Source: a virus. Taken from it: a stretch of DNA of 30,213 nt. How positions within the stretch are numbered: position 1 is the stretch's first letter; the number at the start of each line of letters is the position of its first letter. The notes under the pieces were generated by a model. That model did not search any database, was not told the DNA's origin, and saw only the letters and a program-made list of their open reading frames with translations. The position numbers and the translations under genes were made by a program. The DNA lies in IMG/VR virus record IMGVR_UViG_3300035145_002142, positions 1 through 30,213 of that record. One strand, 5' to 3'. Below, one piece after another: positions 4,479 to 30,213 of the stretch.

Positions 4479-4505
4479 AAAAAAGAGGATCATGTGATCC
4501 CCTCT
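4479..4505 (-). terminator. Intrinsic terminator ending the six-gene leader operon
   Basis: On the minus strand, 4505 to 4482 reads AGAGGGGATC-ACAT-GATCCTCTTT: a 10-bp stem with two G-U pairs and a run of six T at 4484-4479. It follows the stop of the 100-aa gene at 4531 by about 25 nt. It closes the unit that starts near 7076, separating it from the SSB gene. Confidence 0.85.
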
Positions 4506-4530: not shown

Positions 4531-4833
4531 TTAATAGCCTTCATCTCGGTCCATCAATTCTGAATCCACGTAGTGACGGATGGATTGCATGAATTGGTCT
4601 TCCATGCTAGCCCAATGTTGTCCTGCTACGTCTCCGGTTCGAACACCCAACAAGTCTTGAATCTCACGGAACATACTATCCATGTGCGATTCAACAATGT
4701 CTCGAACATCGTCCATTACGAAATCCGTTTCTTCATGTCTATCACCAGCAGCTTCAGAAATTAAACCTTGTCGTAGAAGTTTAGATTTTTCTTCAGCAAT
4801 GATTTGTTTGAGCTGTCTTTTGGTTAATTTCAT
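4531..4833 (-). CDS. Small protein with recurrent N-terminal leader, unknown function
   Basis: 100 aa, start at the ATG at 4833 with CGGAG ten bases upstream; an upstream ATG at 4857 lies inside the previous gene and has no ribosome site. The first ~26 residues (MKLTKRQLKQIIAEEKSKLL, then RQGLISE) are the leader shared with at least four other proteins here. The leader ends LISE followed by AA, matching an [LI]-x-E protease rule. The rest (about 70 residues) is acidic and predicted helical (DDVRDIVESHMDSMFREIQDLL), with no family I recognise. It is last in the operon before a terminator. Inference: a head-packaged internal protein whose leader is removed during maturation; it could equally be a cytoplasmic protein with a helical docking segment. 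Confidence 0.72.
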   Translation of the reverse strand: MKLTKRQLKQIIAEEKSKLLRQGLISEAAGDRHEETDFVMDDVRDIVESHMDSMFREIQDLLGVRTGDVAGQHWASMEDQFMQSIRHYVDSELMDRDEGY

Positions 4834-4847
4834 TTTTAGCTCCGAGA

Positions 4848-5132
4848 CTAACAGCACTCGAGTGCCATTTCGATAATAGCGCAGTACATATCGTTGTCCA
4901 TCATTTCACACTTTTCTTCGGCTTCCAACAATTGTTGAACTGAAAATTCATCAGCTAATTGCATGCCGAGCCTTTCGACATCATCATAATCCATCATGCC
5001 GCCTGCAGTTAATTCGTCCAAGCGGATGATAACTGGGTTATTGTTTCTAGATTCACGAATCAAGCCTTGGCGTCGAAGCCTAGTGTATTCTTCTCGAATA
5101 ATTTGCTTGAGTTGTCCTTTAGTGAGTCTCAT
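4848..5132 (-). CDS. Small acidic protein with recurrent N-terminal leader, unknown function
   Basis: 94 aa with GGGAG upstream of the ATG. The leader is MRLTKGQLKQIIREEYTRL, then RRQGLIRE followed by S, nearly identical to those of its neighbours, with the basic residues on one helix face. The remaining ~67 residues are strongly acidic and helical (DDVERLGMQLADEFSVQQLL) and end in ECC; four cysteines lie in the last 25 residues. No known family recognised. It sits 14 nt upstream of the last operon gene, so the two are surely co-transcribed. Only the leader is conserved among the neighbours; the bodies differ, which argues that the leader is a targeting module and not part of a shared fold. 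Confidence 0.72.
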   Translation of the reverse strand: MRLTKGQLKQIIREEYTRLRRQGLIRESRNNNPVIIRLDELTAGGMMDYDDVERLGMQLADEFSVQQLLEAEEKCEMMDNDMYCAIIEMALECC

Positions 5133-5169
5133 TTTCTTTTCTCCCTAATAATTGTTAACGATACTAAAT

Positions 5170-5185
5170 ATACTGGATTCAGTAT
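5170..5185 (-). other. Intergenic hairpin within the leader operon
   Basis: ATACTG-AATC-CAGTAT, a perfect 6-bp stem in the 65-nt gap between two operon genes. It is followed by ATTTAG and not by a proper T run, so at best it is a weak terminator. It could set relative mRNA levels of the last two genes. Confidence 0.35.
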
Positions 5186-5197
5186 CTGGGTTGTTTT

Positions 5198-5692
5198 TTA
5201 GAAAGTTCTTAAGTTGAACTCTTTAGATATCAATGAATCGTGCCAGTCGTAAGCATCATAATTGTCTTGCAAGCCTGCAAAAGCCAATGCGTCTGGGTGT
5301 AAGGTAGGTTCGTGATAAGAACACATCTCAATACAAAGATAAGCTTCCACCGCATCTTTACAGGTGTACAAATCCCAAGAGGCACCTGAGCCCGATGCTA
5401 TTTGATAATTTGATCCATCCCAAAATACCCAAGCTGCGTAGCCTTCATCGTCCTGAGCTTCACCTAGGTATTCAAGACCTTGCAATTCTGGTGTCAATTC
5501 CTGTGCCGCTGCTACAGATTCACCACCGGGCCTAGCGATAAATTCCATCTCGGCACCGTATTGGCTTTGAACACCCGATAAATCAGATGCAGCATTCTCA
5601 GCAGAGTTTGCTTCTTTTAGCAACCCTCTTCGCTTGAGCCGTGAGTATTCTTCACGAATAATTTTCTTTAGTTGTCTTTTTGATATTTTCAT
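5198..5692 (-). CDS. Leader-bearing protein, unknown function
   Basis: 164 aa; AAGGA lies seven bases before the ATG and the gene begins 3 nt after the stop of the previous one. Leader: MKISKRQLKKIIREEYSRLK, then RRGLLKE followed by ANS, the same module as in its neighbours and ending in an LLKE/A site. After a small Ser/Ala/Gln-rich stretch the body is acidic and aromatic (YAAWVFWDGSNYQIASG, SYHEPTLHPDAL, DNYDAYDWHDS) with a central CIEMC. No family recognised. The two adjacent leader proteins are by coincidence or history both 164 aa, but their bodies are not alike. Inference as for the operon: internal head protein candidate. Confidence 0.74.
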   Translation of the reverse strand: MKISKRQLKKIIREEYSRLKRRGLLKEANSAENAASDLSGVQSQYGAEMEFIARPGGESVAAAQELTPELQGLEYLGEAQDDEGYAAWVFWDGSNYQIASGSGASWDLYTCKDAVEAYLCIEMCSYHEPTLHPDALAFAGLQDNYDAYDWHDSLISKEFNLRTF

Positions 5693-5695
5693 TAT

Positions 5696-6190
5696 TTATC
5701 CTTTATATGCAAATCTAGATGTACCGTGTCCTGGTTGATCAAAGGGGTGTATTCCTTCTGCGTCGTATACTGCGATTTCATGATCGATTTCATCAAGAAC
5801 TATCTTAAGATCTCTTTCTACATAATCTACTTCCCAACGTGGTTTTCCTCCACCAGGTTTCATTACTTTAATTCCATATCTTGCGCTAGGCTCAAGAGTT
5901 CTTAAATACCAGTAGAAATAAAATGTACCACGTTCATATTTCACATCGATATAATACCCTAAATCTTTTGATCCGCCAGGAATATCAATAGGTAAATGAA
6001 ACAATGCAGAGCCACTGTCATCACCAGCCCGGGCTTTCTTTTTCTTATATCCACGGTCCTGTAGGAATTCTGCAATTTCAGCAAAAGGAAAAGATCCGTT
6101 TGAATACATTTCTTTAATTAGGCCCTGCCCTTTTAATTTAGAGTATTCTTCTCTGATAATTTGTTTTAATTGCCTTTTTGTGAGTCTCAC
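5696..6190 (-). CDS. Leader-bearing protein, unknown function
   Basis: 164 aa from a GTG at 6190 with AGGGGA seven bases upstream. A reading from an ATG at 6253 would overlap the previous gene by 44 nt and put 21 unrelated residues before the leader, so it is rejected. Leader: MRLTKRQLKQIIREEYSKLK, then GQGLIKE followed by M. The body begins FPFAEIAEFLQDRGYKKKKA and continues as a beta-rich domain (LGYYIDVKYERGTFYFYWYL, VDYVERDLKIVLDEID), a compact alpha/beta protein by eye. No known family recognised. Operon position: second to carry the full-length leader consensus, 3 nt before the next gene. Confidence 0.74.
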   Translation of the reverse strand: MRLTKRQLKQIIREEYSKLKGQGLIKEMYSNGSFPFAEIAEFLQDRGYKKKKARAGDDSGSALFHLPIDIPGGSKDLGYYIDVKYERGTFYFYWYLRTLEPSARYGIKVMKPGGGKPRWEVDYVERDLKIVLDEIDHEIAVYDAEGIHPFDQPGHGTSRFAYKG

Positions 6191-6209
6191 GGTATTTCCC
6201 CTATCGGTT

Positions 6210-6737
6210 TTATCGATTTCTAAAGTGTTCGTATCCGGCTTTTCTTGCACCACTTCGTCGCGCTCGGGATCTCATTGGTCGAGAGTAGTCTGTCATAGCG
6301 GATTGCAAACACTGTTCGAACTCTTCGATAGAGTAACAGTTAAAATTTTGACCCTGTGCAAAGAAATCATTAGGGTTGACATGGCCTTTCTGACCAGGAA
6401 GCTCGGCTTTTTCGTATCCTTTTTCACCCTCGCTGATCTGAGCACTGAACGAATCCGGTGTAACTGTTACCTGTACGACAGCGTCCCCTACTCTTCCGGT
6501 AGTGACTTCTCTGTGTTCATCACTCCATTCTTCACCCGGTGCATATACATTAGTGTTGCAGTGCCCACCGTGTGATCGGATAATCTCACAGACTTCGAGA
6601 GTTTCTGGAAGTGTTGGCTGTCTGGAAGCTCGAGCATTGCGTGCACCCACACCCCAGCTATCATAACCTCCGGGTTCCCAAGATTCTTTGATCGCTTGAC
6701 GGATGATTTGTCTTAATTTTGGCATTGTAGTTTTCAT
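6210..6737 (-). CDS. Leader-bearing protein with Arg-rich C-terminus, unknown function
   Basis: 175 aa, AGGAG eight bases before the ATG. The leader is a shorter variant, MKTTMPKLRQIIRQAIKESW, still ending in an I-K-E/S site. The middle contains VCEIIRSHGGHCNTNVYA, an acidic section and a beta-like stretch (AVVQVTVTPDSFSAQIS). The last 25 residues are very basic (SRPMRSRARRSGARK), fit for nucleic acid binding. No family recognised. A basic tail is what one would expect of a protein packed with DNA in the head, but this is inference. It starts just after a perfect palindrome (6749-6762) and is followed 19 nt on by the next leader gene. Confidence 0.7.
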   Translation of the reverse strand: MKTTMPKLRQIIRQAIKESWEPGGYDSWGVGARNARASRQPTLPETLEVCEIIRSHGGHCNTNVYAPGEEWSDEHREVTTGRVGDAVVQVTVTPDSFSAQISEGEKGYEKAELPGQKGHVNPNDFFAQGQNFNCYSIEEFEQCLQSAMTDYSRPMRSRARRSGARKAGYEHFRNR

Positions 6738-6748
6738 TTGATTCTCCT

Positions 6749-6762
6749 GTAACGACCGTTAC
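6749..6762. repeat. Perfect palindrome upstream of a ribosome site
   Basis: GTAACGACCGTTAC: two 6-base arms around AC, ending next to the AGGAG of the 175-aa gene. It may be an RNA hairpin near the ribosome site or a protein operator, or it may be chance. Two other genes in the window (SSB and the HD-domain gene) also have a perfect short hairpin near their ribosome sites. Confidence 0.35.
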
Positions 6763-6773
6763 TCATTGTCGGT

Positions 6774-7076
6774 TCAACCCTCTTCGATTGTTTCTTCGCC
6801 ACCAAGTGGACCCATTGCTCCAGCTGCAGCGCCAGCTCCGCTAGACTCTTCTAAGTCTACGAGAAGCTCTTCATCTTCTTCTTCAAGTACCCGTTCCATT
6901 AACTGGTCGTCGAGAAGCATTGGAGCGCAACCACAGGAACAATATTTAGGGTCATCACATATACATTCCGGAGGGTGGTCTGTTGAAATTACATTCGCAG
7001 GGATCAACCTGTCTTCGGGATAATCTCCGTAAACACCTTCTCTAAGTAGATAAGTTTTCAAACTATATTTTTTCAC
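6774..7076 (-). CDS. Small Cys-cluster protein with YLLRE leader, unknown function
   Basis: 100 aa from a GTG at 7076, with TTGGAG seven bases upstream; a TTG at 7091 would include the ribosome site in the gene. The N-terminus MKKYSLKTYLLRE/G is a short leader with an L-L-R-E site. Next comes a tight cysteine cluster, C38-x-C40-x5-C46-x-C48-x-C50 (ECICDDPKYCSCGC), which may bind a metal. The rest is acidic (EEEDEELLVDLEE) and ends in a Gly/Ala low-complexity stretch and EETIEEG. No family recognised. First gene of the operon that ends at 4479. A terminator lies directly upstream, so either read-through feeds it or a promoter overlaps that terminator. Confidence 0.68.
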   Translation of the reverse strand: MKKYSLKTYLLREGVYGDYPEDRLIPANVISTDHPPECICDDPKYCSCGCAPMLLDDQLMERVLEEEDEELLVDLEESSGAGAAAGAMGPLGGEETIEEG

Positions 7077-7149: not shown

Positions 7150-7713
7150 TTATTCCGTTTCTTCTGTATTGATTAGCATATTTCTTACGTGAAGCAGAAT
7201 GGCTCCTAATTGATTCTTAGCTTCGTTATCATCGACTGACAGTAAAGCATCAAACTCTTCTTCGGACAATACGACCTGGAATTGATTTACAAGATACAGT
7301 GTGCGCTGAATATGCGTGGTCTGGATAGTATTATTTATTTTGAACTGATGACCTAATTTTTCTCGATGCCAATCGGAGTCCTGCTCTAAGAAGAAGTCTC
7401 TTTCCATAGTACCGATTCTTCCGATGTCATGCAGGAAGCCAATCTTATAGATAGACTTGATATTGCAAGGGTTTCCGTGAAACTCGTTAAGAGCTTGCAT
7501 GTCTTTCCCCATCTGTAGTGACGTCGCCACAAGTCCACCTGGGAAAGCTCCGTATTGTCCAGTAGTCTGATTTGCTGGGGATAGTGCCAAGCGTTCACCT
7601 AGGCCCTCTAAGAGTTTGTCGATCTGTTCGTCTTTAAGTCTACCGAGGATACCAGTGTATGTAGCCCAATTTTTCTTGATTTCGTCAAATGACAATTCCG
7701 TTTGTGTCGCCAT
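7150..7713 (-). CDS. HD-domain protein, probably degenerate
   Basis: 187 aa, CAGGAG before the ATG. Seen: AFPGGLVATSLQMGKDM (56-72), IGFLHDIGRIG (91-101, with H95-D96) and VVLSEEEFDALLSVDDNE near residue 150. Known: phage HD phosphohydrolases of this layout usually read PGGLxxHS, then LLHDIGK, then LSxxExxAIxxHHG. Here the first metal-binding histidine is missing (T65 in its place) and the final HHG is DDNE. Only the central HD pair remains, so catalysis may be lost. Role unknown; nucleotide hydrolysis is the usual family activity. It lies 64 nt after the preceding gene, with a TATAAT-like box and hairpin in between, and ends at a terminator, so it may be its own unit. Confidence 0.75.
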   Translation of the reverse strand: MATQTELSFDEIKKNWATYTGILGRLKDEQIDKLLEGLGERLALSPANQTTGQYGAFPGGLVATSLQMGKDMQALNEFHGNPCNIKSIYKIGFLHDIGRIGTMERDFFLEQDSDWHREKLGHQFKINNTIQTTHIQRTLYLVNQFQVVLSEEEFDALLSVDDNEAKNQLGAILLHVRNMLINTEETE

Positions 7714-7777: not shown

Positions 7778-8377
7778 CTAACTCTTTGTTTTCATTTGAA
7801 TGATACTTACGGTATTACCAGACAATCGGAACTCAAAATTTTTCATCGTGATGTCCGATTTATCTTCCATTCCCATTGCTTTTAAGATTTGTGAAAAATA
7901 GAAACAAAGAAAACGACGGCTAGAGTTCTCGTTGCTAGCTAGGTCTTTCCATTTAGGGTCAAGGTCCACTTGTACAACATGTTGTCCATCAATTGAACCA
8001 CCGTTGCCAACGATTATTGGACCAATGCCACTGGTTTTTCCGATTCTATTAGCAAAGTAATCCGTCCAACCTCGAGAACTAGGAATCTGTCCTAATCTTT
8101 TGAATAATTCATTCGGATTTTGTTCAGCAGTTAAACGGGAGGATCCGTATTTCTTTCTCATTTGCTGGATGAGCAATTTTAATTCTGATGTGTAACGACC
8201 TTGTGGTGGCAAGGGTTGTCCATATTTCGATGGGTCAACACCGGTCTTCTTCATCTTGGTTGGCTTTTCCTGTTTTTTCTTCTCAGGTTTCTTGTCTTTT
8301 GCTTCACCGGTTTCTTCGTCTTTTTCTTCTAATATAGCTTCTTGTAGAAGATACCAGTGTAAACTTCCTTTTTTCAT
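7778..8377 (-). CDS. Lys-rich protein with YLLQE leader, unknown function
   Basis: 199 aa. Start at the ATG at 8377, which overlaps the polymerase stop as ATGA and has GGGAG seven bases upstream; a start at 8425 inside the polymerase gene is rejected. N-terminus MKKGSLHWYLLQE/AILEE resembles the leaders of the operon below (L-L-x-E/A). It is followed by a highly charged Lys/Glu linker (about residues 20-50), then a folded part with LKLLIQQMRKKYG, PSSRGWTDYFANRIGKTSG, VVQVDLDPKW and FLCFYFSQILKAMGM. No family recognised. It is translationally coupled to the polymerase. If the leader is a capsid-targeting sequence, coupling to a replication gene is odd; an alternative is a polymerase accessory protein whose N-terminal helix merely resembles the others. 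Confidence 0.72.
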   Translation of the reverse strand: MKKGSLHWYLLQEAILEEKDEETGEAKDKKPEKKKQEKPTKMKKTGVDPSKYGQPLPPQGRYTSELKLLIQQMRKKYGSSRLTAEQNPNELFKRLGQIPSSRGWTDYFANRIGKTSGIGPIIVGNGGSIDGQHVVQVDLDPKWKDLASNENSSRRFLCFYFSQILKAMGMEDKSDITMKNFEFRLSGNTVSIIQMKTKS

Positions 8378-15983: not shown

Positions 15984-18900
15984 TTAGTGAATTGATCCAA
16001 TACCGTTATCCCCTTTTGCCTCTTCTGTGAGTACGAAATAACCGTTTGGCAAGTCTTTCTCATTCGAGGTATGCAACGCAGTCGCCAACTCCTTAGCGTC
16101 CATAGAAACGTTGAAGTTAACATGCATGTGTACATTCCCTGGCTTAATTGTAATCTCGTTCTTTCCGGTTGCTTTGAGAATACCACCCACAATGGGTTTC
16201 AAGTTAATGTCGTTCAATTCGACTTGCATGCTCTCGAGGTTTGACGCAATTTGACCCACTTCCTCTTTAATATCCGTGATGAAATCGGAAACATGAAGAT
16301 TGGCTACGTCCATCAGTTTCCATGTGACATTAAGATTTTGAAGACCCTCCAATCCCGTTTCTGACAGAAAAGTACCAAAGTTAGACAATTTCTTTACGAT
16401 GTCTATCAAAGAATCGACTGATTTCAGATTATTAACTTGAGTTTCCGAAAGGCTCGACATATTAGAAAGAGACACGACTGCAGCATTGACTGTGGACTCT
16501 AGGTATCCCGACTGGAAGAAACCACGTGCACTTAGGAATATTCTACTTAACTGATCATCTGCGGAAGATGAAAAGTCGAACATTCCGATATCTTCTTTGC
16601 CCATGTCGTAGAACGATTGTACCGCTGTAGAGATTTTAGTGATTACATCGAATGCACCGGAAAGTGCACTTGTTTTCTCCTTAAAGCCTTTCGGAAAAGT
16701 GATGCCATTTATTATGTCGACAATATCGTTAATCAATGGGCCCATATTTGTCTTTAATGATGACATGATATTGGTAAGTCCACTAGTTAACGATGACGTA
16801 TTTTTCGCAAGCGATTTAGAACTAGTCCAAAAACTCGCATTTTCTTGTACTTGTTGTAACGGTGCCATCATGGCAGCGCCGAACTCTGCAATGGATGCGA
16901 TAACTTCAGCGATAGCAGCTACGCCCTGAAGACTTCTTCCTGACATACCTTTGGTCATATCTACGATATCTACAATCAAAGACTTGACGTCATCAATGAT
17001 AGCTGAAATAAATCCTGACATTGATTTGATAGCGTCAGCTGACGGTGCACTGGAACCAAACAAACCAGACACACTAGAGATTTTACCCGCTTCCAATCCG
17101 AGGCTACCTAATCCTTGAATCGCCTTAATCAATTTTCCGACTGCATCGATTTTCACTTCGAAGATTTTAGGGTCCGGACCAATGTCAAGATCGTTAATAT
17201 CTCGCATAAGTGAGAAAATCATGGGGAAGCTGGTTCTGGAAAACGTGTACATCGCTACAATACCGGCTAACAATATAGGCACGGCACCTGGGATCATGGC
17301 AAGAGCACCCATTGCAGCAGTGGCCGCTATCATCGCTGCTGCAGCCATAATAGTTTTTTCCATTCCATCCAATGCATGATCTACGGCTTTGACATCGAAT
17401 TTAATAGTGGTCAATTCATCAAGAATAAAATTAGTGAACGGAATGACACTATAGTGCATGAATGCCATCGTAGCAGCCATACCAATCGCAGCCACGGGGA
17501 TCAAAAGAGCAAGGGGACCTAGAGCTGCACCCGCTAGAACCACTCCAATAGTGGCGCCTAAAGAAATAGCAAGTGATGCGTAAAGTTCTGTCACTTTTAG
17601 AACGTCTGGAACACCGGCAACTGCGAGCATTGCGTTCAACGCAAGTGAGTAAACACCGACAACAACCAGCATCCCCATTGCGGCTAAGAATCCATACCCT
17701 ATCGCGGCCACTTGAGGCCCTGTAAGATTTAGCCCAACTGTCATGGCAGCATATCCGATTCCCAACGATGCCATTAAAGAAATACCCAATGCCGTATATA
17801 ATTCCACGACTTTACCGGGATCAGGACTAGGGATCGCTTTCATCATCAAGTCAAGTCCGAGTCCATACGCTGCTAAAGCAATGTTCAAAAGGAACGCAGC
17901 TCCGATACCCTTGGAAGCACTAGAAACTGCGCTCGGCTGGATCGTGTTGGCAGTGTATGCCAATCCCGCTGTCATCCCTAAGGATAACCCAATACCGGTG
18001 AATGCGGCGAGAACATCCATGATACCGATACCCATTTTTTTGTACGCAAGTGCTACGATTGCAGCGCCAGCAGCATACAAAGCCAACGGTTTCATCGTTG
18101 TCATAGCTAATGAGAATACTTTAGCACCAAAATCCGCAATCTGAGGTGCTGTTAACGCAGTCATCGAAGTGACCAAACTAGTCAGGGTAGCACCCGCATT
18201 AGCCGCAGTTGCAGGATTTCCACCACCCATAGCACCAGCAGCTTGCGTAGCCGCAGTACCCGTGGATGCAGCTCCAAAGATTTTACCCATTCCGCCTCTC
18301 ACCAAGGAGATGATCGCTTGCTGTGCCAGTGCGGTTGCTAACGTCTTGAATAGAATAAAGCCCCAAATTCCCGCTAAAAGTTTAATCAAGGGTTCTTTCA
18401 CTTGTTCGAAGAGTGCGCCAAATAATTCCATAAGTGCAGGAGCTAATGTATCTTTTAAGGAAGTGAAAATCGATGAGAATGCGTTTCCAAGAGCAGATCC
18501 GATACCTGACTGAGCCGCATCACCAATCGTACTTTGAACACCGTTTCCGGAGATGAAATCCGCAACAGTCTTAATCATGGAGCTCACTTTTTCAATTAGG
18601 GCAGGAACCATACCACCGATAGACTCGATAAAACCTGCAACCATGCCTGAGAACTTAGAGCCAATGGCTGACGCTCCCACGTTGTCGATATATCCGGTGA
18701 TTCCAGCCCAAATCTTTTCTATCAATTCTCGTCCTGCTTTGGCTGGATCGTCCATCATATTAGCACTGAATTCTTTGAATGCGGCCTTGAGTTTATTGAA
18801 CATCTTGTCGACGCCCTGGAAATTAAGGAACTCTTTGATATTCTTCGCAGTCGCACCCATCGAATGTGCCCAATGTGCAAACTCGGCACCAACTTTTTGA

Positions 18901-23068: not shown

Positions 23069-23695
23069 TTAGCTGATTTCAGTAGCCAATGCCATCACGT
23101 CATCTAGATTGTGAACCATCACCAAGCCTTCTTGTGAGTTTTCACTATAGTCTAATGAAGCAACGCCTTGATCGATCATAAACCACAATGCATCGTTCAA
23201 CTCTTCTTCTGACAAGTTCATAGTTTGCCATACGGGTTCTTCCATCATAATTTCGTGTAAACAAGAAGTGCATTCTTTTGGAGTCATAGGCTGCCCCATC
23301 TCATCGTTAGTGACGATCCAGTCTCCAAGTTCTCGAACCAATTCAGGGCTGATGTGACTATAGTCATCTTCACCCTTTCCATTAGCGATTAAGTTTAACC
23401 ATTCTCTATCGAGAGGCCCCTTTGGTTCGAACTTCATCTCGTTAATCACGCTGTATACTACTTTCTTAAGTTGGTTCTCAGTCACGATCAATGATTCGAT
23501 ACCTTTTACGTTATCGACGAAGTCTTCTGGTTCATGTAGATTAGCACCACCTGCCCATACATCCTCGAAAGCTTCGACATCTTCTGGAAATTCTTCATCG
23601 AGCATGTCGTCATAACTTGCACTATCAATTTTATAATCGTGGTTAGCGATTTCTTCGTTAATCATTTTTCTTAATTGTCGTTTTGTCAATCTCAT
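23069..23695 (-). CDS. Leader-bearing acidic protein with two leader-like motifs, unknown function
   Basis: 208 aa, TAGGAG before the ATG. N-terminus MRLTKRQLRKMINEEIANHD, the same module as in the proteins encoded at 4531-6190 but 15 kb away, inside the tail module. A second similar helix occurs near residues 72-92 (VTENQLKKVVYSVINEMKFE), again Q-L-K-K-V-V-x-x-x-I-x-E, so the protein may be two leader-domain units joined. The body is acidic and helical (MLDEEFPEDVEAFEDVW; LSEEELNDALWFMIDQG). Unlike the operon members there is no clear G-L-I-x-E site soon after the first helix; INEM at 86-89 would be the closest. No known family. Late-type octamer upstream, terminator downstream: a single-gene unit, probably late. 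Confidence 0.74.
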   Translation of the reverse strand: MRLTKRQLRKMINEEIANHDYKIDSASYDDMLDEEFPEDVEAFEDVWAGGANLHEPEDFVDNVKGIESLIVTENQLKKVVYSVINEMKFEPKGPLDREWLNLIANGKGEDDYSHISPELVRELGDWIVTNDEMGQPMTPKECTSCLHEIMMEEPVWQTMNLSEEELNDALWFMIDQGVASLDYSENSQEGLVMVHNLDDVMALATEIS

Positions 23696-24361: not shown

Positions 24362-27300
24362 TTAGATATTCATTCCTTGGTTTCCAACAACAAAGTCCAA
24401 AGATACGAATTCAATCGATTTTGTGGGTTGCAAGAATATTTTACCACGGATTGTATTGTTTTCAACGTCTTGTTGTGTAGTCGTAGTGGTATCGATAACA
24501 ACTTTATAACGTTCCAATCCGTTTTGAGCTTGCACTCGTTGAAGGATCGGGCTTACCAGTCCAGAGAATTTAGCTAGTGTAGATTCTCGATTTGGTTCGA
24601 ACAGAATGCCCATGCTTACTTCACGAACTTTACGTCTGATATCAATCAACAATCGTCTTACATTCACACGATCCAAAGCGGACTGAGATTGAAGCATAGT
24701 CTTTTGTCCGAAGATTACGACACTTTCTCCAGTTTGAGGGAATGAAGTGATTGGGTTAATATCTGCTTCGTAAAGAACGTCCATATTGGTTCTGTTCAAC
24801 TTCACTGCAGTCTCGATAGTGGTGGGTAGAGCACCACGGGCAAAACCAGCAGGAGCATACCAAGGATGAGCGATTGCATCGTTCAGTGACAAAGCGCCCA
24901 ATACAGCGACAGATGCAGGAGCTACAACAGTAGTGTATCCATCTTCCATAATCAAATCTGGGAAGTAACATGTCGCAAAAGAAGTATCCAAGTTACGATC
25001 AGCCAAGCTTTGAGCTGTATTGGTCACGGAAACTTCTTGATCATATGAGGTGATCCATTGACCATCGTGGTCAACGTTCATTGCATCCATAACATACAAA
25101 GCATCGAACCTTTCTTCGGTTTTATCGATAGCATAGTCAGTGATACCAGCTGATCTCATTCCCGGAGTGGCCAAAAGTTGAATGTCAACGTCTGATTTTT
25201 CAGCAAGAATGTCAAGAGCTTTACGGAAAGCTGCAGTTGTACAACCTTCTGGACCGCCATAAATAACGGAACCAGAATCATCCATTTCACGTAGTGCACT
25301 TAGATTGCTCATTTCAGCTTTTTCTTTATCGAAAATATCGAGACCATCCCAACCACCTTGGAAAGGGACAGAGAACTTCAAGTATTTTTTAGCAGCGGAT
25401 TGTCCGAAGTCTTTAGCAACATCGAGGAATCTATAACCATTCCCGGTGCCTTTCACTTTGTCAACTCCACCAGCTCCCGTTTCAACCGATTCAAGAGTAG
25501 CTCCCCATGAGTATTGACCATTAACCAAGTCAAAGGAGGCTTTGTCTCTGATATATACGGCTTCATGCCACATTGTAGAGTCAACTGGGTTCAACGTGTC
25601 TCCACTCTTACAAGCAACCAAAACATTCTCCAAAGAGAAACCGTTGTTGTTGTATGCATCTGCGTCAGCGCTATCACCGAACCACATTGGGTTTGATCCT
25701 AGAGTAGGAAAATGTTTAGTCAAGTTATCGACCAAACCGATGACTTCAGTATTTCGATTGCGCTGTGATGCACTTCGAATATCTTGGCTTTGAACACCCC
25801 AAAAGAAACGAGAATCTACGACCTTTGTAGAGCTTTCTCCGATACTGAGGTCAGAACGAAGAGGCAAAGGTGCTTCAAAAATATCCACGTTAGCACTGTC
25901 GGCTTGTGACCACAAAGACTGTCCGCTTAACATGAGGGAGTTTTTGCCTTGGAATCCGACTGGCAATGCCGTAGGTTCCATCACACCATTTTCAATATCA
26001 TCTACAACTTCGACTCTAACGAATTGACTTTTGTTAGGGTAAAGGCCTTCCAAAACCAATTTCTGTTTTCCGTCTTCTTTTTCGAAATCAAAGAACATGT
26101 GTTGATCACCGATCACTCTTGCAATGTATCGATCAGAGGACGGGTTCAAAGATAAACCAGAAAACTGTTGAAGCACGACGGGTTTGTCATCACTGTCATC
26201 TGCAGAACGGACTAGAATGTCAAATCGTCCGTAAGGATTAGATACATCAGATGATTTCGTGATACCGCTTACACTTACTTTGATTTGACCAGCTCCAGCA
26301 CTTCCATCGTCGATAACGTGAAAACGGAAAAGCTTCTTAGGGGCGTCACCTAACTTTTGAGAAGTAATCCATGGAGTCGCAGCAGTCGTAAACTTTTGTC
26401 GCCAGTTATTGTAGTTAACTTTGTCCGCATCGAAACTATCCACACTGATGCCTTCGTAATGTGCAGTTGAATCCAATAGTCGAACTGTCGGATTTGCAGG
26501 GATTTGCGCTAGTCCTTCTGGTACATCGTAGTGTGCATACAGATAATGGCCTCGCTCTTGTAATTTCGTAGGATCAGTGTTAAACACTTTAGGGAAATAG
26601 ATCGGACTAGTCGGATCAAAAGAGGCTGTTAAGGTATTGGAGTAAGAACTAGTGTTAGTGAATCCGTTCAAGTAAATAGTGAACTGATTGTCCACTGAAT
26701 TAGGATCGACTTCACCGGTATCCGAACCACCATCCTTTCCAACTCCAAACTCTCCGTATGCTGCACTGTTTGCAGCATTTACACCCGCCCCACTATTCCA
26801 AAGGCCTGGATTGATTCCGTTAGGGAACATCAATACACCTCGTAGTGTTTCTCTTCGTCCATTTGTACCCAAATAGTCTTGGGTTGTCGATGGAGCCACC
26901 ATTTCTACGGATAGCATTCTTGTGGATGCAGATGGTGCCGTTCTTGTAGAATTATCAGCAAAAACCAACGTTGGAAGTTGTACACCGGAAACATCGCATT
27001 CAATAGTCAAAGAAACAGTCACACCAAGTTGTTGGTTCTTGGTTACGGTGATATCAGGATTAGCGCCAAGAACAGCAGCAATCGCATCCAATTTATCTGC
27101 AGCAGCTGTCAACCCAGCTACGTTGATTTGTGTGCCCACAACGGTCCCATCGGTATCCAACTCATAAACAACGATTGCGTTATTAGTGCTTACGAAAGTA
27201 AACGTTGCCTCATCATTAGAGATGACACCATCAACAGTAGTCAACAAATATCGAGTCTCCAATGGACTCACGGCATTTTGTCCGGAAACAAACGAAGTAC

Positions 27301-28192
27301 TAGAAAACAAGTTAGTAACTGGATTAGCACTATCCGTTCCGAGAAAGATGTCAGAGGTTTCCCCGGTTCCGATGGATTCAATATAAAAACTATGCATCAT
27401 AACTACGCTAGAAGCAAGATCTGCATTGTCATCGATTGCAGAAATAATCGCTCCGGTAATTCCAACTGCATTACCGTTTAATCCGGATATATCAATGATT
27501 TCCAATACATCAGCTTCACCTGTAAAGTCATGGATTACGATGCCAGAATCTTCTACGGTCAATCCGACAGCAGTTCTTCCAGAATTGACACCATTGACCC
27601 AGAACGCCGTTTTATTTAATGTCCCGGTTCCATCGTTACTTTCGACAATAAACCAAATCCCATCTAGCAATGCAGGATCAGCTTGTCCATCCCCTTGTAG
27701 ATCGATTCGAGATGATGTTGCATTTACAGCTTGTCTTCCTACTTCATCGGTTTCCAAAGTGTATACGTCAGGAACGTCAGCGCCTGCATAAGGGTTAGCT
27801 TCTGGAAGCCAAACGGAACCTTCCGATTCCAAGTCGGTTCTTGTATAATCTACAAGATTGTCGCCCAAAGCAAATCCAGCTCTATCGGTCACTCCGGTAC
27901 TAAGGCTAGCTCTTTTAGCATCGCCCACTCCGAGAGTTCTCAGGAATAAACCTGCACGTGCATTACGCATCCATTCTTTTACAGCTAGAGGGCCCATATA
28001 TGTTCCATCGGAATTACCGAACAAGCTAACAAACTCGTTTGCAGTCGCGAATACTTTTGGAACAAAGGCAGGCCCTTTTTGAGAAGTCCCAATCACTCCC
28101 GCAGGAACGCCTTGAGGACGCACAGTGCCTGGTGCGGAGAGATCAAGTTCTCTCGATGTTACACCAGGGCTCTTCAAAATTCTTTCTGCCAT
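24362..28192 (-). CDS. 18: Tail sheath protein (paralog 1), with large insertion
   Basis: 1276 aa, about twice T4 gp18 (659). Start at the ATG at 28192 with AAGGAG eight bases upstream; a TTG two codons earlier is less likely. The N-terminus is classic sheath (SPGVTSRELDLSAPGTVRPQ, then VGTSQKGPAFVP-like text and NEFVSLFG). The C-terminal third is the conserved core (INPITSFPQTGESVVIFGQK, SALDRVNVRRLLIDIRRKV, LQPTKSIEFVSLDFVVGNQG). Between, residues ~135-430 form an insertion rich in Gly, Asp and Thr with beta-like repeats, probably displayed on the sheath surface. Role: contracts to drive the tube through the host envelope. An upstream paralog shares the C-terminal half. Possible late octamer upstream. 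Confidence 0.94.
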   Translation of the reverse strand: MAERILKSPGVTSRELDLSAPGTVRPQGVPAGVIGTSQKGPAFVPKVFATANEFVSLFGNSDGTYMGPLAVKEWMRNARAGLFLRTLGVGDAKRASLSTGVTDRAGFALGDNLVDYTRTDLESEGSVWLPEANPYAGADVPDVYTLETDEVGRQAVNATSSRIDLQGDGQADPALLDGIWFIVESNDGTGTLNKTAFWVNGVNSGRTAVGLTVEDSGIVIHDFTGEADVLEIIDISGLNGNAVGITGAIISAIDDNADLASSVVMMHSFYIESIGTGETSDIFLGTDSANPVTNLFSSTSFVSGQNAVSPLETRYLLTTVDGVISNDEATFTFVSTNNAIVVYELDTDGTVVGTQINVAGLTAAADKLDAIAAVLGANPDITVTKNQQLGVTVSLTIECDVSGVQLPTLVFADNSTRTAPSASTRMLSVEMVAPSTTQDYLGTNGRRETLRGVLMFPNGINPGLWNSGAGVNAANSAAYGEFGVGKDGGSDTGEVDPNSVDNQFTIYLNGFTNTSSYSNTLTASFDPTSPIYFPKVFNTDPTKLQERGHYLYAHYDVPEGLAQIPANPTVRLLDSTAHYEGISVDSFDADKVNYNNWRQKFTTAATPWITSQKLGDAPKKLFRFHVIDDGSAGAGQIKVSVSGITKSSDVSNPYGRFDILVRSADDSDDKPVVLQQFSGLSLNPSSDRYIARVIGDQHMFFDFEKEDGKQKLVLEGLYPNKSQFVRVEVVDDIENGVMEPTALPVGFQGKNSLMLSGQSLWSQADSANVDIFEAPLPLRSDLSIGESSTKVVDSRFFWGVQSQDIRSASQRNRNTEVIGLVDNLTKHFPTLGSNPMWFGDSADADAYNNNGFSLENVLVACKSGDTLNPVDSTMWHEAVYIRDKASFDLVNGQYSWGATLESVETGAGGVDKVKGTGNGYRFLDVAKDFGQSAAKKYLKFSVPFQGGWDGLDIFDKEKAEMSNLSALREMDDSGSVIYGGPEGCTTAAFRKALDILAEKSDVDIQLLATPGMRSAGITDYAIDKTEERFDALYVMDAMNVDHDGQWITSYDQEVSVTNTAQSLADRNLDTSFATCYFPDLIMEDGYTTVVAPASVAVLGALSLNDAIAHPWYAPAGFARGALPTTIETAVKLNRTNMDVLYEADINPITSFPQTGESVVIFGQKTMLQSQSALDRVNVRRLLIDIRRKVREVSMGILFEPNRESTLAKFSGLVSPILQRVQAQNGLERYKVVIDTTTTTQQDVENNTIRGKIFLQPTKSIEFVSLDFVVGNQGMNI

Positions 28193-28219
28193 TTTCAAAT
28201 CTCCTTATATGATTTCTTT

Positions 28220-28227
28220 TAATTATA
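28220..28227 (-). promoter_or_regulatory. Late-promoter-like octamer TATAATTA before sheath paralog 1
   Basis: One mismatch to TATAAATA, 27 nt upstream of the sheath start in the 35-nt gap that follows the stop of the other sheath gene. If used, it would let this sheath gene be made independently of the upstream one. Confidence 0.35.
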
Positions 28228-30213
28228 TTATTCGAAAGAAACGCCAGAGTTTGTGATAACAAAATCAATCGCAATAAATTCGATTGTCTTCGTAGGTACG
28301 AGGATAATTTTTGCGTTTAATTTATATTCATCCACATCTGCTGCGGAATTATTGGTATCATCACAAATTACACTAAAGCGTTCAATCCCGGATTGACTTT
28401 GGATAACCGCCAATCTCGGTGTAATCAAGCCTAACAATCTATCTCTTGTTGCTTTGTTATTTTGTTCGAAAAGGATCAAAGATGCAACTTCGTTCACTTG
28501 GCGTTTCACTTCCAAAAGCAATCTTCGTACATTCACTCTGTCCAAAGCACTTGCGTTGATCTGCATGGTTTTCTGTCCAAAGATCACGAAACCACCGTTA
28601 GGGAAGTTTGCAATCGGATTGATGCGTCTTTCATACAAATCGTCTCTGTCAGATACGGACAATCTTGTTTTAACGTTCTCTACGAAATCAAGAGCACCTC
28701 TGTTAAACCCTGCAGGAGCGTACCATTGATATGATACAGCATCGTTATATCCGAGAGCACCCATAGCAGCTACAGAAGCGGGTACAAGAACTCGTCTGTT
28801 GTTGATCGGATCTGTCACAAAAACGTCCGGGAAATATGTAGCAACGTAGTTGTTGTTCATTGCTCTGCTTTCCAATTCATCAGCGGTGTACTCGACATCT
28901 GGTCTTCCTGATCCAAAGATACGAGCATTGTTACTTGATCCAACGACACCGTAGTTAGGGATGTCCATCACATACATTGCCATTCCATAATCACGAATCA
29001 AATTAGCAGCATAATTGGTGACATAAGGGTCACGGATGCCTGGAATAGCTAACAAGTTAATATTAACAGTCATAGGGTCGGTCATGATTCGAATAGCTTG
29101 TCTATAAGATGCGATCACGTTATTATCCTTACCGTCACCACTCATCGAGGTAGAATCACCGTCTGCAGTCCCTACAAGACCCAAACCACCGACTACAAGA
29201 CCAGCTTTACCACCATCAAGAGTTTCTGTTGAAGCTGCAGCATCATTCATATCTTCGATGTCACCGTCCAAGATATTTAATCCATCGAACCCACCGTAAA
29301 ATACGTTAGTGAATTTAGCATATCCAGAGAACTTGTTAAAGTTATTTGCGGTATCATCGTGAATCAATGAAGCAAATGTCATACGGTCAGCACTTGCAAC
29401 AACATCTGTGATAGCATAAGTTGAAGGATCGTTCGAACCGTTTCTAATGTAAGCAGCTTCTCTCATCGCGTTCTTCGCACTCAACCCACTAAAATTGGCA
29501 GGGTCTGTCTCGTTCAAGGCGACTCTTGCAAGTGTGAACTTATTATCGTGGAAAGAGTCTGGATCAGCAACGTAATGTCCGATTTTATTCTTGCCACCCA
29601 TTACGCCCATAAACTTAGTGTAGGATTTAACTACTGGGGAAATCACGCCACTCAAGTTAGACTGTAGAACACCTTCTGCAACGTCTTTATCGTCTACGAT
29701 TCTAGTAGTTTTCACACCAAAGAAGATTCGAGAGTCAGCTCTTTCGTTATTGCCAGCATGTCCAATATAGTCTAGGTCACGTGATTTTACTTTACCCTTG
29801 GTAGCCTTGAAAGTCAACGGCATAGCAGGGAAATAAGTCGATGCACTGTTATTAGCTAGATTATCTTCGATATCCAACACGGGGATACCTCTAAATCCGA
29901 ATGGTACCGCTTCCTGTGGAACTTGACCCTTGTACACAGCTTCGTTCATTACGATTCTGACATGAAGTGATTGATTTGGGTATCTTCCGGAAATAACCAA
30001 TCTTCTTTCTTCTTCTAGGTCAGCATCAAAGTCAAACGCAACTTTCTTGTCACCGATTTTCTTAGCGATGAAATTATCAGATGTCGGATCCATTGAACAG
30101 CCGGTGTATCGTTCCAATACTTCTGGTGCAAAATCATTGTCTCCGAAACGTCTGATCAATACATCGAATGTACCGTATTTATAGTTAGGGTCAGTTGATT
30201 TTCGGATATTGTC
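28228..30213 (-). CDS. Tail sheath protein (paralog 2), N-terminus outside the window
   Basis: 661 codons open to the window edge; the frame continues upstream past the first possible start codon, so the gene is cut and not short. Its first visible residues (STDPNYKYGTFDVLIRRFGD) match the sheath 1 region SSDVSNPYGRFDILVRSADD near residue 647. From there to the end the two are paralogs: YPNQS, RIFFGVKT, YAPAGFNRGAL, INPIANFP, VIFGQKTM, SALDRVNVRRLL, ILFEQN, PTKTIEFIAIDFV. The shared SALDRVNVRRLL string is identical. The last residues, NSGVSFE, differ from the other copy (NQGMNI). Role: second sheath subunit, perhaps forming a mixed or heteromeric sheath, or specialising for one end of the tail. 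Ends 35 nt before paralog 1 starts. Confidence 0.92.
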   Translation of the reverse strand, partial: DNIRKSTDPNYKYGTFDVLIRRFGDNDFAPEVLERYTGCSMDPTSDNFIAKKIGDKKVAFDFDADLEEERRLVISGRYPNQSLHVRIVMNEAVYKGQVPQEAVPFGFRGIPVLDIEDNLANNSASTYFPAMPLTFKATKGKVKSRDLDYIGHAGNNERADSRIFFGVKTTRIVDDKDVAEGVLQSNLSGVISPVVKSYTKFMGVMGGKNKIGHYVADPDSFHDNKFTLARVALNETDPANFSGLSAKNAMREAAYIRNGSNDPSTYAITDVVASADRMTFASLIHDDTANNFNKFSGYAKFTNVFYGGFDGLNILDGDIEDMNDAAASTETLDGGKAGLVVGGLGLVGTADGDSTSMSGDGKDNNVIASYRQAIRIMTDPMTVNINLLAIPGIRDPYVTNYAANLIRDYGMAMYVMDIPNYGVVGSSNNARIFGSGRPDVEYTADELESRAMNNNYVATYFPDVFVTDPINNRRVLVPASVAAMGALGYNDAVSYQWYAPAGFNRGALDFVENVKTRLSVSDRDDLYERRINPIANFPNGGFVIFGQKTMQINASALDRVNVRRLLLEVKRQVNEVASLILFEQNNKATRDRLLGLITPRLAVIQSQSGIERFSVICDDTNNSAADVDEYKLNAKIILVPTKTIEFIAIDFVITNSGVSFE

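Follow-up and report, generated by a model that had tools for sequence, protein, structure and literature searches.

A short N-terminal leader on unrelated small proteins of large Gp23-type myophages, a candidate capsid-targeting propeptide

We analyzed a 30,213-base IMG/VR fragment of a large T4-superfamily myovirus (the window, meaning the whole stretch at its full length), in which several small genes begin with nearly the same leader. The best explanation, which we put at a probability of about 0.84, is that the leader is a capsid-targeting propeptide, an analogue of the T4 capsid-targeting sequence (CTS), which brings variable cargo into the prohead and is cut off at maturation. Read from sequence, the case is built on a strictly N-terminal position, unrelated bodies, a protease-type end site, phages with gp21 and Gp23, leader-type N termini within the head gene cluster, and cassette turnover. 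According to our model, the leader would dock each protein onto the prohead scaffold core, and many unrelated cargo proteins would thereby be built into the head. A gp21-type (S77) prohead protease would then cut after the [LI]-x-E at the leader end, leaving the mature body free inside the head. The bodies, which would be part of the virion, would probably enter the next host together with the DNA.

The leader operon in the window

The original prediction placed six small genes between two terminators. All six open reading frames are present, on the minus strand, and both terminators are well supported. The features, together with two related genes elsewhere in the window, are as follows (a slash marks the predicted cut).

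4482 to 4505, minus strand: intrinsic terminator at the operon end, -18.1 kcal/mol, z -5.4
4531 to 4833, minus strand: leader gene 1, MKLTKRQLKQIIAEEKSKLLRQGLISE/A; acidic body of 73 aa, pI 4.3; leader HMM 33.5 bits
4848 to 5132, minus strand: leader gene 2, MRLTKGQLKQIIREEYTRLRRQGLIRE/S; acidic body of 67 aa, pI 4.1; leader HMM 33.4 bits
5198 to 5692, minus strand: leader gene 3, MKISKRQLKKIIREEYSRLKRRGLLKE/A; acidic body of 137 aa, pI 4.1
5696 to 6190, minus strand: leader gene 4, GTG start, MRLTKRQLKQIIREEYSKLKGQGLIKE/M; body of 137 aa
6210 to 6737, minus strand: short-leader gene 5, MKTTMPKLRQIIRQAIKE/S; body of 157 aa
6774 to 7076, minus strand: short-leader gene 6, GTG start, MKKYSLKTYLLRE/G; acidic body of 87 aa
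7094 to 7126, minus strand: intrinsic terminator upstream of the operon, -15.5 kcal/mol, z -4.3
7778 to 8377, minus strand: short-leader gene outside the operon, MKKGSLHWYLLQE/A; basic body
23069 to 23695, minus strand: fifth full leader gene, MRLTKRQLRKMINEE; 208 aa

The four leaders that had been called nearly identical (starts at 4833, 5132, 5692 and 6190) are 27 residues long and agree pairwise at 16 to 20 of 26 positions (60 to 77%). The remaining two operon genes carry shorter leaders, and the bodies behind the four long ones show no mutual BLAST similarity, again as predicted. A Shine-Dalgarno-like sequence precedes every operon start, including the GTG starts at 6190 and 7076, and the operon bodies have net charges of -2 to -20 and pI values of 4.1 to 6.1. 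The strict ATG-started leader pattern matched four times in the window and more than 100 times across 17 records; the reversed-pattern control gave 0 in both, and the leader is therefore not a product of chance.

The tail-sheath protein of the window has its best matches in Microcystis phage Mel-JY01, the 484-kb uncultured phage LR756508, Rhodothermus phage RM378 and Flavobacterium phage immuto. The window is a fragment without the head cluster, so gp21 of its own phage is inferred from relatives. The gene at 23695 lies between a tail-tube gene, directly after it, and a baseplate-type gene, and partly similar proteins occur in three other records (L134, L125 and L151). Its product contains a second leader-like stretch, SLIVTENQLKKVVYSVINEM, at about residues 67 to 86, possibly a duplicated targeting segment. 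Elsewhere, positions 7150 to 7713 encode an HD-domain-like protein (E 0.0035, below the cut-off) that is kept beside the polymerase and gp32 in relatives. Two tail-sheath-type genes, one of 1278 aa, stand in tandem at 24362 to 30159; L070 and L267 also have tandem sheath-like pairs of more than 1000 aa.

Searches of Pfam, PHROGs and NCBIfam with the window bodies and 71 leader proteins gave scattered single matches and no common domain; for the window bodies, no match to an informative family came up. The AlphaFold2 model of gene 4 had a pLDDT of 45. It returned viral fold matches (best E 0.02), which were dropped because of that pLDDT. The model hints that the leader helix is separate from the body; in the window's leader, this helix showed no significant amphipathicity.

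Distribution of the leader and the site at its end

Scanning IMG/VR with a degenerate DNA pattern that included the start codon yielded at least 120 stretches with at least 195 distinct leader proteins. Among the matches listed, 175 complete proteins of at least 45 aa fell into 148 body clusters. When the start codon was omitted from the pattern, all 118 distinct copies still followed directly after an ATG (115) or a GTG (3), showing that the leader is always N-terminal. The profile test set with the original prediction, in which the leader should always be N-terminal and on unrelated bodies in related phages, was thus passed on both counts (118 of 118 copies; 148 body clusters among the matches listed). 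As with a CTS, a conserved leader is common to otherwise unrelated proteins.

The leader is often present in many copies. Whole records at the top of the range hold 21, 19, 15, 15, 14 and 14 strict copies, mostly in same-strand arrays, and in L174, an 8-kb stretch, about 17 leader genes follow each other almost without interruption. A search of 257 Gb of bacterial and archaeal genome sequence found the leader in seven stretches only. One of these, a 306-kb contig, also has gp21 and gp23, identifying it as a phage binned with a metagenome-assembled genome (MAG). One conserved 148-aa leader-bearing family recurs at L049:532, L088:6506, L095:1336 and L148:5022. The G017 member is encoded immediately upstream of the terminase, which means that some leader proteins are something other than variable cargo.

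All six operon leaders, including the short ones, end in [LI]-x-E (GLISE/A, GLIRE/S, GLLKE/A, GLIKE/M, AIKE/S and LLRE/G). Among the leader proteins as a whole, strong conservation ends near residue 16 and hydrophobic-x-E then follows, its E usually at residue 21 or 22 (75 proteins over the two columns, compared to about 3.4 expected per column). [LIVM]xE occurred within residues 16 to 31 in 110 of 133 proteins, compared to 49.5 in shuffled sequences (sd 5.0, maximum 70) and 27 to 39 in windows further downstream. The control motifs [LIVM]xD, [LIVM]E and [LIVM]xxxE showed no enrichment; [LIVM]xxE and [LIVM]xK were moderately enriched. About one fifth of the leader proteins have no [LIVM]xE in residues 16 to 31, and some of these have it one or two residues earlier. 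The Gp23 proteins of relatives carry an invariant hydrophobic-x-E near residue 60 in 13 of 13 cases, mostly LLRE/A or VLRE/A but also LISE/A. T4 Gp23 loses 65 residues at its cut site (PMC9958956), close to the place of the motif in the relatives. The leader end thus matches the gp21-type [LI]-x-E cleavage motif and is a predicted cleavage site.

Further N-terminal families on unrelated bodies occur in the same phages and all end in [LI]-x-E: MKHLREYIRQILLE, MKKLLTEWRKFLKE, MIKLKDLLNE, a MKLLIENWRKFLNE-like class, and the window's MKKYSLKTYLLRE. Three of these classes were located as follows.

L170, 2960 to 7897, minus strand: MKHLREYIRQILLE class
L155, 3116 to 7379: MIKLKDLLNE class
L054, 5723 to 7367: MKKLLTEWRKFLKE class

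These three classes and a further one, MNKLFENWRKHLNE, which likewise ends in [LI]-x-E, are spread across L170, L155, L054, L057, L065 and L079. In 2,834 other genes, [LI]-x-E was found 323 times in residues 6 to 18, compared to 75 to 102 times further in, an excess of about three to four times in a count that includes variants of the main leader.

Head genes and cassette turnover

Genes for both an S77 (gp21-type) protease and Gp23 were found in 14 of the 16 large leader-bearing records, and both were missing from the remaining two, which are 99-kb contigs; one of the 14 is a MAG in which the leader array is on a different contig from the head genes. Fifty further leader-bearing records, mostly fragments and one overlapping the first set, gave Gp23 in 17 and the HK97-type capsid family in 0 of the 50. 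The protease and capsid that accompany a CTS are therefore seen in the relatives.

The head genes of these relatives run in the order terminase, portal, a protein of about 280 aa, gp21, small proteins, a gp22-like scaffold (a label that we assigned from position and composition) and gp23. Soon after gp21 lies a protein of about 135 aa that starts with a leader-like sequence in many phages; in L066 its N terminus is the canonical leader (MKITKQQLKIIVKECLVEILSEG). There, one 8.5-kb contig carries gp21, this protein (134 aa), another leader-like protein, the gp22-like gene and gp23. We scored 829 N termini with a leader HMM after removing the strict leaders. Thirteen reached at least 7 bits, while the reversed control peaked at 5.3 and gave 0 at 8 bits or more. 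Ten of the 13 were the post-gp21 protein of about 135 aa or head-cluster genes of LR756508, and orthologues of the L066 134-aa protein were among the top scores. In G016, four leader genes lie directly behind gp23, and in the huge phage LR756508 a count by eye gave about 15 leader-like genes interspersed with terL, portal and gp21. The proposal that the leader is a sorting or docking tag of head-packaged proteins is thus supported by the cut-site motif, by the co-occurrence with gp21 and Gp23, and by the leader-type N termini between gp21 and gp23.

Two side observations concern these clusters. The portal of LR756508, 1386 aa long and matched in three pieces, and its gp21 of 574 aa (L230:5764-9924 and 16481-18205) are far longer than those of relatives and may contain inteins or insertions. 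A GIY-YIG-like gene at L066:771-1508, between the gene for the ~280-aa protein and gp21, is possibly a homing endonuclease.

The leader genes themselves turn over between close relatives. Sister phage L009 keeps the order polymerase, HD-domain gene, short-leader gene 6 and gp32, with a gene 6 homologue in the same position, and has a single leader gene with a different body in place of the window's five other operon genes. Its counterpart of the gene at 8377, MKRDLMWYLLRE, also keeps its position. The body of gene 4 is 66% identical to that of a leader protein in the array of another phage (L174), and there stands behind a shorter leader with a different spelling (MKITKRQLRRIIKETLVTE); strong homology starts after the LxE. 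A body search of IMG/VR found no close relative for genes 3 and 5, and none with gene 4 as the query.

These results bear on three other explanations. The leader could be a permanent, uncut docking helix for another phage or host complex, such as the tail, RNA polymerase or a membrane. It is basic and is predicted to be helical in a low-confidence model, and the window's leader genes stand beside replication and tail genes, not in a head cluster. However, such a helix leaves unexplained the [LIVM]xE enrichment at the leader end with its match to the Gp23 site, the leader-type N termini between gp21 and gp23, and the restriction to Gp23-type phages, and we regard it as improbable. Still less probable is that the leader proteins are scaffold or core parts for head assembly, not cargo delivered to the host. 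The conserved post-gp21 protein, with its leader-type N terminus, is present in most head clusters examined and hence probably structural, but, unlike assembly parts, the majority of leader bodies lack conservation even among sister phages, and their number ranges from 1 to 21.

The arrays could also be recent duplicates with fast-diverging bodies and slower N termini, without any sorting function. Duplication would account for the tandem arrays, in which up to about 17 genes share a strand, and for the 60 to 77% identity of the window leaders. On the other hand, the 148 body clusters (among the matches listed) have no detectable similarity, conservation drops sharply near residue 16 and again at the LxE, the same body stands behind differently spelled leaders in two phages, and several unrelated leader sequences end in the same LxE. 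This makes duplication without function the least likely of the three, and we retain the capsid-targeting propeptide as the preferred reading.

Comparison with known systems and implications

In T4, a short propeptide directs internal proteins into the prohead core, gp21 removes it, and the freed proteins are injected, as outlined in PMC9026906 and PMC12373910; the former also describes the CTS function as experimentally established. Ip1, Ip2 and Ip3 of T4 inhibit three distinct GmrSD restriction enzymes, one each (PMC12373910). Like the leader described here, IPI, IPII and IPIII carry a short N-terminal leader on otherwise unrelated small proteins, and these leaders end at an [LI]-x-E-type site (MKTYQEFIAE/A; ...STITE/A in IPI; read from NC_000866). 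In both systems the loci vary between related phages and gp21 and gp23 are present. The present leader cannot be aligned to MKTYQEFIAE, with only the terminal [LI]-x-E in common. It is about 18 to 27 residues long versus 10 to 19 in T4, with up to 21 strict copies per genome versus 3, and the bodies of the window operon are mostly acidic, whereas T4 internal proteins are small and basic. The shorter classes in the same phages (MKLLxENWRKFLxE, MIKLKDLLxE and MKKYSLKTYLLRE) look nearer to those of T4. Since the leader has all the sequence-visible features of a CTS but an unrelated sequence, it would work like a CTS without being a member by sequence. The comparison with the T4 internal proteins drawn in the original prediction holds for the proposed mode of action (tag, LxE end, phages with gp21 and Gp23) and not for sequence homology.

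Other phages offer partial parallels. Like the phages studied here, whose leader proteins are proposed to be handled in a similar way, phiKZ and SPN3US are large phages; they package many proteins in the head, ejection proteins among them, that a prohead protease trims by cutting after E (PMC5694885, PMC9026906). The cut motif there is [SA]-x-E and the propeptides often exceed 100 residues; the passages on them mention no short leader shared by many unrelated bodies. Phage P1 has the head-associated antirestriction proteins DarA and Hdf (PMC12810830), a lead from a different phage that is likened by description only.

The closest cultured relatives, Mel-JY01, RM378 and Flavobacterium immuto, all lack the strict leader, which was also not found in cultured T4, SCTP-2, Atu_ph07, HTVC008M, P-SSM2, KVP40 and XacN1 or in the uncultured LR756508. 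A tblastn search of cultured phages with the leader alone and with gene 4 gave no match, although the leader-alone query may be masked as low-complexity sequence. A pattern for the MKxLxENWxxFLxE class, guessed and not validated on known members, was absent from eight cultured phages. We found no description of the leader letters or of such a system in open-licence papers.

By analogy with T4 Ip1 to Ip3, a plausible guess, marked as a possibility in the original prediction too, is that the bodies may act against host defenses or in host takeover. We lean slightly toward a broader view, in which large uncultured Gp23-type myophages would have a modular cargo system: several interchangeable leader classes, all with the protease site at the end, would be fitted to 150 or more protein families, in arrays that may run to tens of genes. 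If so, it would rank with the largest effector arsenals known to be delivered by virions, with cargo readable from genome sequence alone. The small genes of large environmental phages mostly defy interpretation. Should the leader prove to be a head-address label, hundreds of them would be flagged at once as virion cargo, their mature N termini would be predicted, and a shortlist of injected proteins would be available for host-defense screens. It would also be a second capsid-targeting signal, unrelated in sequence, to set beside that of T4.
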